A stretch of DNA of 36,042 nucleotides from Luteolibacter sp. (GTDB taxonomy: Bacteria > Verrucomicrobiota > Verrucomicrobiia > Verrucomicrobiales > Akkermansiaceae). The stretch is from contig JAUYNL010000021.1 in the NCBI GenBank assembly GCA_030696085.1, positions 1 through 36,042 on the forward strand, read 5' to 3'. Positions within the stretch are counted from its first letter, which is position 1. Every line of letters begins with the position of its first letter. This document shows, one piece after another, positions 7,186 through 9,699 of the stretch. Made by a program: the position numbers and the translations under genes. The notes under the pieces were generated by a model. That model ran no database searches. It worked only from the letters and a program-made list of their open reading frames with translations, and was not told the DNA's origin.

Positions 7186-9699
7186 ATGAATCACTCCGCT
7201 CCCCTGATCTATTGCCCTGCCCTGCTCCACTACTCACGCCGTGAGACGCGCGAGGTAATGGTGGGAAACATCGGCATCGGCGGAAAAAATCCGATCCGCG
7301 TGCAGTCGATGATCACCTCGGACACCCGCGACACGGCGGCCTGTGTGACGGAGGTGTTGGGGTTGGCTGAGGCCGGTTGTGAAATCGTGCGCATCACGGC
7401 TCAAACGAAAGTTTATGCCGCGAATCTTGAAAACATCGCCCGCGAGGTCCGCGCGGCGGGTTGCCCGGTCCCACTGGTGGCGGACATTCATTTCAAGCCG
7501 GACGCCGCACTCGAAGCCGCGAAGTGGGTGGAAAAAATCCGCGTGAACCCCGGAAACTACGCCGACAAGAAGAAGTTCGAGATCCGCGAATACAGCGACG
7601 ATCAATACGAGGAGGAACTCGAACGCATCCGCGAGGAGTTCACGCCGCTCGTTTTGCTTTGCAAGGATCTCGGCCGCGCCATGCGCATCGGCACCAACCA
7701 CGGGTCGCTCTCGGACCGAATCATGAACCGCTATGGCGACAGCCCGCTCGGCATGGTCGAAAGCGCGCTCGAATTCGCCCGCATCGCCCGGGAAAACGAC
7801 TATCACGCGCTGGTTTTCTCGATGAAAGCGAGCAACCCGAAGGTCATGATCGAGGCCTACCGCCTGCTCGTCGCCCGCCTCCGCGCCGAAGGTCCGGATT
7901 GGAATTATCCCGTCCACCTCGGCGTCACCGAAGCCGGCGATGGCGAGGACGGCCGCATCAAAAGCGCCATCGGCATCGGCTCGCTGCTCGCAGACGGCAT
8001 CGGCGATACCATCCGCGTTTCGCTGACTGAGGATTCGGTTCATGAAATCCCCGTGGCACAGGCGCTGGTTAAAAGTGGCTGGGACTTGCAGTCCCAGTCC
8101 GTGGTCGGGACAACCTGTCCCGATATCGATGCCCTGGCCCAATCCATCCGCCCCGATTGGTCGAAACTCGAAAAACGAACTTCCACTTATCTTCCGCACT
8201 GGCGCATTCGCGGCGCGACGTATGCGGTCACTTTCAGAGTCAAAGACTCCCTGCCCGCATCCGTCCTCAAGGATTACGAGCGGGAAAAATCCATCCTGCT
8301 CGAACAAATCAAGCAGGAGAAACAATACGCCGGATCCCGCGATGCCACCGATTGTCTCCGCAAGTTGCACGCGGAAATTCAAGCCCTCACCGAGACCATC
8401 ATCGAACCCGCGTTGCACGCCGCGGAAGGCCCCCAACCGCTGGCCGACCGCGCGATCGCCGACATGATGGTGCGGGCGCTAAAACACTTTGATGGAGAGC
8501 GTTACGATCTATTCGCCTGGTCGGTGATGCCAAACCATGTGCATGCGTTGATCACTCCGCATGAAGGCCAGGAACTGGAGAATATCCTCCAGGCGCTGAA
8601 AACACACACGGCCAAGGAGGCGAACCGGATACTCGAAAAATCCGGCACCTTCTGGCAGGAAGAGTATTACGATCATATTGTCAGGGATGGGGAGGATCTG
8701 CGACACCAGGTGCGATATATTTTGAGGAATCCGCAGAAGGGGAGAGCTTCTGAGGAATGGACGGGCAGCGTATTTGGAAATGCTGGCGCAAGTTGTCCCA
8801 GCCACGCTCTGGGACTGCAAGTCCCAGCCACTATTTCCTTCACCCCGTCCTACGATCCATTCTCCTACGAGCGGCGTCGTAGCTCGCCCGTCACCATCAT
8901 GGGCCACCCGCTCGGTGGTGAAAACACCGTGCGCGTATTCACCACCCAGGACCGCTGGAACGCCCTCGCGCACAAGATCCCATCGATGGGCGATTTCAAG
9001 CCGGAGATCATTTACGAAAAATCCGATGTGCTGGAGATTGATCCGAATGACGACGAGGCGCTCGCGGTCGTGAATGATCGCACCGAGCCCTGTCTCGTCA
9101 CGGTTGCCGACGGTACGGATATGGGAGTCATCCCCGCGTTCCGCCTGCTGGCGGCGAAAGTGCGGGCGGAACATCCGATCCTTCTGAAGGACACCTTGCA
9201 TCCCCCGGCTGAAACCAAGGACTTCCTCGATGCCCTTCTGCCCGCAGCGCAAAACCTCGGCTCGCTGCTCTGCGATGGCATCGGCGATGCCATCCTCGTG
9301 CGTGGAGAAACCGCGCCCGGCCAATCGCTGCGGCTCGCCTACAACATCCTGCAAGCCGCCGGCACCCGCATTTTCAAGACCGACTACGTCGCCTGCCCGA
9401 GCTGCGGGCGCACGCTCTTCAACCTGCAATCCACCACCCGGAAGATCCGCGCGGCCACCGGCCACCTCAAGGGCGTGCGCATCGCGGTGATGGGCTGCAT
9501 CGTCAACGGCCCCGGCGAAATGGCGGACGCGGATTTCGGCTATGTCGGCGGCGCTCCTAACAAGATCAACCTCTACGTCGGCAAGACGCCGGTGCGCTTC
9601 AACATCCCGGAAGACGAGGCGGTCGGGCACCTCATCGACCTCATCCGCGAACACGGCAAGTGGATCGACGCGCCCGAAGCCGCCGCCACCGCTTCCTGA
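7186..9699 (+). CDS. ispG: 4-hydroxy-3-methylbut-2-enyl diphosphate synthase with in-frame RAYT insertion
   Basis: IspG (GcpE) reductively converts MEcPP to HMBPP in the MEP isoprenoid pathway, using a [4Fe-4S] cluster. This frame is 837 residues. The TIM barrel is residues 1-296 (start MNHSAPLIYCP; GNIGIGGKNPIRVQSM). The middle domain resumes at ~550 (YDPFSYERR) and shows the family to be the three-domain type of plants and Chlamydiae. The cluster domain has CPSC at 737-740 and GC at 770-771, followed by NGPGE with Glu778: all cluster ligands are present. Residues 297-549 are foreign: a whole RAYT transposase domain between inverted repeats, in the linker between barrel and middle domain. 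Without it the enzyme would be 584 residues, normal for this type. I see no frameshift or stop anywhere. Whether the fused protein is active is not known. Confidence 0.93.
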   Translation: MNHSAPLIYCPALLHYSRRETREVMVGNIGIGGKNPIRVQSMITSDTRDTAACVTEVLGLAEAGCEIVRITAQTKVYAANLENIAREVRAAGCPVPLVADIHFKPDAALEAAKWVEKIRVNPGNYADKKKFEIREYSDDQYEEELERIREEFTPLVLLCKDLGRAMRIGTNHGSLSDRIMNRYGDSPLGMVESALEFARIARENDYHALVFSMKASNPKVMIEAYRLLVARLRAEGPDWNYPVHLGVTEAGDGEDGRIKSAIGIGSLLADGIGDTIRVSLTEDSVHEIPVAQALVKSGWDLQSQSVVGTTCPDIDALAQSIRPDWSKLEKRTSTYLPHWRIRGATYAVTFRVKDSLPASVLKDYEREKSILLEQIKQEKQYAGSRDATDCLRKLHAEIQALTETIIEPALHAAEGPQPLADRAIADMMVRALKHFDGERYDLFAWSVMPNHVHALITPHEGQELENILQALKTHTAKEANRILEKSGTFWQEEYYDHIVRDGEDLRHQVRYILRNPQKGRASEEWTGSVFGNAGASCPSHALGLQVPATISFTPSYDPFSYERRRSSPVTIMGHPLGGENTVRVFTTQDRWNALAHKIPSMGDFKPEIIYEKSDVLEIDPNDDEALAVVNDRTEPCLVTVADGTDMGVIPAFRLLAAKVRAEHPILLKDTLHPPAETKDFLDALLPAAQNLGSLLCDGIGDAILVRGETAPGQSLRLAYNILQAAGTRIFKTDYVACPSCGRTLFNLQSTTRKIRAATGHLKGVRIAVMGCIVNGPGEMADADFGYVGGAPNKINLYVGKTPVRFNIPEDEAVGHLIDLIREHGKWIDAPEAAATAS
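8074..8123 (+). repeat. left REP-like end of the RAYT element (two hairpins)
   Basis: The first hairpin is 8079-8097: stem CTGGGACT/AGTCCCAG (8 bp, perfect) with a TGC loop. The second is 8105-8123: stem TCGGGACA/TGTCCCGA (8 bp, perfect) with an ACC loop. The outer 24 nt are the exact reverse complement of 8809-8832. This is the form expected of REP substrates of RAYT enzymes. All of it is translated as part of ispG. Confidence 0.85.
8791..8832 (-). repeat. right REP-like end of the RAYT element
   Basis: Hairpin 8809-8827 has stem CTGGGACT/AGTCCCAG and loop GCA, the mirror of the left outer hairpin. The next 18 nt inward match the left end less well (GTGG..GGGACAAC kept), and the second hairpin is not preserved. 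GTCCCAG at 8795-8801 can instead pair with CTGGGAC at 8809-8815, giving a competing 7-bp stem. The right end is therefore structurally different from the left. Confidence 0.8.

Follow-up and report, generated by a model that had tools for sequence, protein, structure and literature searches.

A RAYT transposase embedded in frame in IspG of Luteolibacter sp., and related in-frame elements in other genes of Verrucomicrobiota

In the Luteolibacter sp. DNA analysed here (contig JAUYNL010000021.1; the window is the whole stretch of 36,042 nucleotides), ispG reads into a RAYT transposase and back into IspG as a single open frame of 837 residues, from the ATG at 7186 to the stop at 9699, with no stop or shift along the window translation. 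The first-pass annotation had proposed such an arrangement from the letters alone, and the observation is confirmed, both by translation and by the Pfam order GcpE–Y1_Tnp–GcpE. The explanation we favour, and consider rather probable from the comparisons below, is that the insert is a REPtron lacking its own start and stop, which remains in the protein as an internal domain without splicing and has spread to the same site through a process resembling homing. The features of the locus are the following.

7186..9699, + strand: ispG frame with the embedded element, 837 aa; Pfam GcpE in two stretches; the sole copy found
7186..8070, + strand: N-terminal (TIM barrel) part of IspG, ending at the linker; first GcpE stretch, AF2 model and Foldseek matches to IspG structures 4mwa and 4g9p
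8071..8835, + strand: whole element as delimited by its 47-nt terminal inverted repeats; boundaries approximate to the base
8071..8117, + strand: left terminal inverted repeat, a REP dimer with its GTGG tag at 8075 and a second hairpin to about 8122, inside the open frame; from the inverted repeat and RNA fold
8152..8778, + strand: RAYT (Y1/HUH transposase) domain, internal and in frame; from Pfam, the 4er8 match, Foldseek and NCBIfam
8536..8544, + strand: HUH motif codons H451-V452-H453; from the translation, coordinates counted by hand; kept in all 47 embedded copies described below
8716..8718, + strand: catalytic tyrosine codon Y511, aligning with the YI..NP tyrosine of E. coli TnpA_REP
8789..8835, + strand: right terminal inverted repeat, a REP dimer with its GCCAC tag ending at 8831, inside the open frame; from the inverted repeat and RNA fold
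8836..9699, + strand: IspG middle domain and Fe-S domain; from translation, Pfam and the IspG alignment
9394..9519, + strand: Fe-S site, C737 (9394), C740 (9403), C771 (9496) and E778 (9517); invariant in 39/39 aligned IspG

Pfam splits GcpE into two stretches with Y1_Tnp between them at residues 439-512 (34.8 bits, cut-off 23), which places the insert in the IspG linker, as had been claimed. The four residues C737, C740, C771 and E778, which we take to be the Fe-S ligands of IspG, all lie 3' of the insert, again as the annotation had it, and are invariant among 39 aligned IspG sequences, 8 with an insert and 31 without. The AlphaFold model of the 837-residue protein (pLDDT 82.5, pTM 0.68) agrees with this layout, since Foldseek matched the single-chain model both to IspG structures (4mwa, 4g9p) and to the E. 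coli transposase structure 4er8; the two joins, at residues 300-311 and 533-550, have pLDDT below 50. A search of the genome's own assembly (3.77 Mb, 96% complete) found no second ispG, so that the copy described here is the only one found, and no HMG-CoA reductase was found in that assembly either, from which it follows that the MEP pathway is probably the sole isoprenoid route and ispG probably essential. The gene is flanked upstream by a DUF2339 membrane protein (3620-7126) and directly downstream by clpS (9704-9985).

The open frame through the insert cannot be put down to chance, given that the two remaining frames of the window element contain 6 and 3 stops and that the same arrangement occurs in other species; the non-coding frames of 47 embedded elements hold 3 to 20 stops each. 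All 22 stand-alone RAYTs and all 47 embedded ones retain both HUH histidines and the tyrosine, the embedded set including one identical pair, close relatives, eight copies that reach contig ends (L027, L032, L147, L151, L152, L157, L158 and L164) and one copy, L159, in an uncertain NUDIX host with 57 residues before the RAYT. Among the contig-end copies, L032 and L151 have little or no host after the RAYT on their contigs, while the part preceding the RAYT is only 33 residues long in L157 and 38 in L158. The stand-alone set includes L160, in which a long open stretch upstream looks non-coding. Nineteen pairs were picked by hand, and in the 12 of them with a finite, non-zero dS the dN/dS of the RAYT was 0.10-0.30; the other seven comprise six saturated pairs and one pair (metH of G015/G016) without any difference. 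These ratios show purifying selection on the embedded RAYTs. The IspG host itself gave dN/dS of 0.02-0.18 where dS was finite, a value that speaks against a dead gene. That the arrangement is such a gene or an assembly artefact was a concern because many of the genomes are metagenome bins and one ispG copy, in G010, has a broken frame; it recurs in many separate assemblies, including a metH copy in G004, a single contig of 4.4 Mb, and this recurrence in the main refutes the artefact reading, which we regard as having practically no chance of being right.

Judged by its parts, the insert is a REP-RAYT-REP element, in other words an in-frame REPtron. The annotation had identified the insert as a RAYT, and the RAYT is indeed there; the insert is larger than that, as it includes the flanking REP dimers of the 47-nt inverted repeat. 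The two terminal repeats, 8071-8117 and 8789-8835, are 87% complementary, the left REP dimer folding strongly (-30.7 kcal/mol, z -4.7) and the right one more weakly (-16.3, z -1.8). The tags in relatives, read by eye, are GTGG or GTAG, and the window carries GTGG. By sequence, the nearest solved structure to the RAYT domain is E. coli TnpA_REP (4er8, E 7.4e-7), and the same structure is recovered by fold (4er8_A, Foldseek E 1.8e-6, TM on the target 0.60). The NCBIfam model REP_Tyr_transpos scores 78 bits (E 6.6e-22) on the window RAYT, just below its cut-off of 80. The window RAYT has no stop of its own and is not a separate gene with its own start and stop. As for an internal start, no start-codon position is conserved over the 47 copies, and a GTG, TTG or ATG may serve in single copies. 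Besides the two element ends, no exact copy of the palindrome was found in the own genome; a REP search allowing 2 mismatches in the own assembly gave 5 further rows (3 places) against 1 for the control. Comparison of occupied and empty sites did not recover the exact target bases, the linkers being too variable. The insert was also considered as an intein, an intron or an IStron, and all three were rejected. The window protein has no splicing (Hint) or intein match in Pfam, and Rfam returned no group I or group II intron or IStron, its one match being unrelated and below the gathering score; the claim that splicing motifs are missing thus stands.

The claim of an in-frame RAYT could be taken to related genomes, where a RAYT lies inside IspG in 12 of 39 (the own genome included). 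Eleven of these have it in the same linker (G000, G001, G005, G008, G010, G011, G013, G015, G016, G020 and G022), and G006 has it at another site. In G001 and G011 the linker copy reaches the end of its contig, and that of G010 (L033/L066), near a contig end as well, is the only one with a broken RAYT frame, which may be an error considering that the coverage of the named record is cov_2.69. The same IspG arrangement is found in named public records (L053-L060), of which L060 is without its N part and L054 is a duplicate of G016. RAYT remnants were seen in the IspG linkers of G006, which also has the second-site RAYT, and of G018, which has a remnant only. The G018 linker (L043) consists of a RAYT tail and REP-derived alanine-alanine-threonine repeats, and looks like the scar of an in-frame loss. 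In L053, the left REP is present as three tandem in-frame copies, resembling a growing REP array. A second site, in the C-terminal part of IspG, is apparently shared by L139 (G006:C294) and L324 (G074:C287), which belong to two families of the order. Public bins that bear the title Akkermansia muciniphila (L056, L062, L073) fall among the relatives of the window in the IspG tree, and their titles may be wrong.

IspG is not the only host. Among the 39 genomes, a RAYT was found in MetH in 13, in LeuS in 6 and in CarB in 3, while the MetH site, read by eye, is empty in 21 genomes, its flanks being directly adjacent. In the genome from which the window comes, CarB also carries a RAYT in frame, different from that of ispG (L133, G000:C71, 466-4482, + strand, in a frame of 1339 aa). 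At the positions that a RAYT occupies elsewhere in CarB and LeuS, other species carry in-frame insertions of a REP or REP pair without a RAYT, as seen by eye (L230, L232, L233 and L236 in CarB; L259, L265, L268 and L269 in LeuS). Wider searches matched at least 73 of 113 genomes of the order and at least 48 of 193 of the phylum; among the matches listed, most are in short frames that look like stand-alone genes, and of the matches in long frames we examined 20 from the order and 13 from the phylum. The hosts from these searches are LeuS, CarB, MetH, IspG (linker, L320; second site, L324), adenosine deaminase, a glycosyltransferase, a ClpB/ClpC-type ATPase, HsdR, Eco57I- and MmeI-type restriction-modification proteins, PriA (4 genomes), ValS and HypF, and a DUF5107/TPR protein is also host to an embedded RAYT by Pfam. 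Hosts were named by Pfam, with most LeuS, some CarB and MetH, IspG L320 and the PriA-like flanks first recognised by eye. In the Eco57I-type proteins of three genomes, one of them outside the class, the RAYT sits at apparently the same place (L143, L326, L333), and four genomes from classes other than that of the window have it in frame in PriA, after the 3' DNA-binding domain (L338, L340, L342, L344). Four candidates were not accepted as hosts: L331, for which Pfam gave only a short TSP3 repeat match, L343, with no Pfam match at E 1e-6, and L341 (FAD oxidoreductase) and L345 (radical SAM), whose Pfam host domains lie only before the RAYT.

The RAYT tree was built from 69 sequences, one row per locus, without L033, L060 and L066 (partial), L054 (a duplicate) or overlapping versions of the window copy. 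In it, the 16 IspG-linker copies form one clade (99/82) and the CarB copies another (100/99); MetH accounts for 2 label changes and LeuS for 3, and all 11 labels together for 11 changes against a shuffled mean of 41. A clade of 32 (100/96) unites the IspG, second-site IspG, MetH and DUF5107 copies and contains none of the 22 stand-alone RAYTs, which suggests that an element already without start and stop moved between genes. The CarB, LeuS, glycosyltransferase (GT), adenosine deaminase (ADA) and restriction-modification (RM) copies lie among stand-alone RAYTs, which implies more than one gain or loss of the embedded state. A quick tree of 87 rows gave 2 changes for CarB, 3 for MetH and 5 for LeuS, with the LeuS copies L323 and L325 inside the mixed embedded clade and the IspG-linker copies again in a single clade.

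These trees bear on whether the elements could simply be repeated fresh transpositions into hot-spot linkers, of which only the in-frame insertions survive. The several LeuS lineages (the 5 changes just mentioned), the two sites in IspG and the insertions of REPs without a RAYT at these positions of CarB and LeuS, seen by eye, are what such a process would leave; nevertheless, the copies in the IspG linker belong to a single lineage, an ordinary RAYT gene would carry a stop codon with it, and an identical run in metH, described below, extends beyond the element. We consider this explanation very improbable.

The single IspG-linker clade also fits an alternative in which the RAYT became useful to the host as part of IspG and has since been inherited vertically with losses, and the purifying selection on the RAYT would be expected there too. 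On the IspG host tree, a quick one without bootstrap made from those of L023-L099 with an N part of at least 180 residues (L100-L132 and 5 duplicates being left out), RAYT presence changes 9 times, at least 6 of them forced by starred branches, against a shuffled mean of 15.5, and 0 of 500 shuffles were as low. Presence is thus more clustered than in the shuffles, and the RAYT in IspG is partly inherited, indeed much of it. Against such a domesticated fusion stand the relatives of the element in many unrelated enzymes and, above all, the histories of insert and host, which in the pairs that we compared conflict in both directions. Domestication is therefore an improbable account, and of the possibilities raised in the first-pass annotation, "fixed and domesticated" fits worst because of this conflict and "still mobile" fits best, on an evolutionary time scale; the interpretation offered there is on the whole supported, the REP ends, the other occupied genes and species, and the different RAYTs at one site in near-identical hosts having lain outside its view.

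The conflict was measured in seven pairs, chosen for looking discordant, and the bootstrap intervals of the difference between RAYT and host dS exclude zero in 7/7 of them. In four pairs the RAYT is younger than its host gene: dS is 0 for the RAYT against 1.30 for the host in metH of G015/G016, 0.30 against 1.02 in metH of G008/G004, 0.08 against 0.35 in ispG of L029/L056, and 0.30 against 0.55 in ispG of the window and G022, two genomes whose CarB and LeuS give 0.57 and 0.59. In the other three the RAYT is older than its host gene and has been replaced: 1.26 against 0.05 in ispG of G011/G001 (host dS from only the 250 codons upstream of the insert), 1.48 against 0.34 in metH of G001/G013, and 2.05 against 0.65 in ispG of G015/G016. 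The discordance does not come from RAYTs having a low dS in general, as only 5 pairs of the 19-pair set have RAYT dS below that of the host on both sides, the values being otherwise similar, higher or saturated.

The metH pair of G015/G016 is the clearest case. Its two copies share an identical run of 733 bp that extends past the REP tags by about 20 nt on the upstream side and 42 nt on the downstream side (counted by hand), the pattern to be expected from gene conversion; in the other pairs, four having been compared in all, no comparable run was found. Taken together, these data show one clear case of recent transfer to the same site with co-conversion of the flanks, with three further pairs pointing more weakly the same way from dS alone. 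A run that carries short host flanks is also what would be left if the element were a passenger on ordinary homologous recombination of imported alleles, with RAYT catalysis playing no part. We hold this to be the main rival to a homing-like process, and an unlikely one. Despite the long homology available, the tract stops some 20 and 42 nt beyond the REP tags, the kept catalytic residues (47/47) and the RAYT dN/dS of 0.10-0.30 would lack an explanation, and homologous recombination alone would not suffice to spread the clade of embedded copies over several unrelated genes.

The homing-like explanation that we prefer can be envisioned as follows. A REPtron, with inverted REP dimers around a RAYT without conserved start or stop, would be read as part of ispG and would persist as an unspliced extra domain in the flexible interdomain linker, its frame kept open by selection on the essential host and its transposase kept intact by selection or by recent activity. 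We infer that the cell makes the fusion protein and that it is functional. The element would then pass from one species to another and enter the same gene in the same region of codons, taking with it a few tens of flanking host bases, would at times be replaced by a different RAYT or be lost by an in-frame deletion that leaves remnants, and would occasionally found a lineage in another gene. For the transfer itself, it can be hypothesized that the RAYT drives homing by recombination, through nicks that it makes in single-stranded DNA at the REP tags, as opposed to riding on ordinary recombination, and we infer that RAYT catalysis has a part in the spread between alleles.

Inteins with homing endonucleases are in-frame inserts at fixed sites in housekeeping genes, patchy in distribution and with a history unlike that of the host. 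The element described here resembles them in being an in-frame, fixed-site and patchy insert whose history departs from that of its host; it differs in matching no intein family of Pfam, in showing no sign of splicing, in its different class of nuclease and in its REP ends. With the REPtron/RAYT system of E. coli TnpA_REP (4er8) it shares the HUH/Tyr domain, the inverted flanking REP hairpins with GTAG/GTGG tags and the occurrence of REP-only insertions, here at the CarB and LeuS sites of other species. RAYTs described so far are genes of their own, usually in single copy, whereas the window element lacks a conserved start or stop, lies inside a host frame and has no dispersed REPs alongside. 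Intragenic REPs and Rickettsia palindromic elements are palindromes in frame in conserved genes, including those of Opitutus, in the Verrucomicrobia, and differ, in the part of that work at hand, in encoding 20 to 82 residues and no transposase (PMC3733652). IStrons, which combine a group I intron with an IS605-type element, are similar as IS200/IS605-type elements rendered harmless inside genes, as described in the excerpts available; by contrast, the window insert is open in frame and has no group I intron in Rfam. In the open-licence literature we found no published RAYT inside a host gene. A 2018 survey, in its available part, threw out overlong transposases (PMC6006769), and surveys that drop these as fusions or errors would miss embedded RAYTs.

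Considering all these cases, a tentative generalization, to which we give somewhat less than an even chance, is that a class of unspliced in-frame homing elements exists across the Verrucomicrobiota, made of HUH transposases that have given up their start and stop, that would persist as translated parts of essential enzymes and that would catalyse their own copying into empty alleles at the same codon region, as a splicing-free counterpart of inteins. The mobility of RAYTs has been doubted in print, the portion of the 2021 paper available reporting no evidence for mobility of tnpAREP (PMC8266576); as a single site can be found in related species empty, occupied, with its RAYT exchanged or with a scar, their movement becomes testable. 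The hosts IspG, MetH, LeuS, CarB and PriA may also serve as natural guides to sites where a large domain can be inserted. For the biology of these bacteria, the findings point to a selfish element that would hide in essential proteins without splicing.
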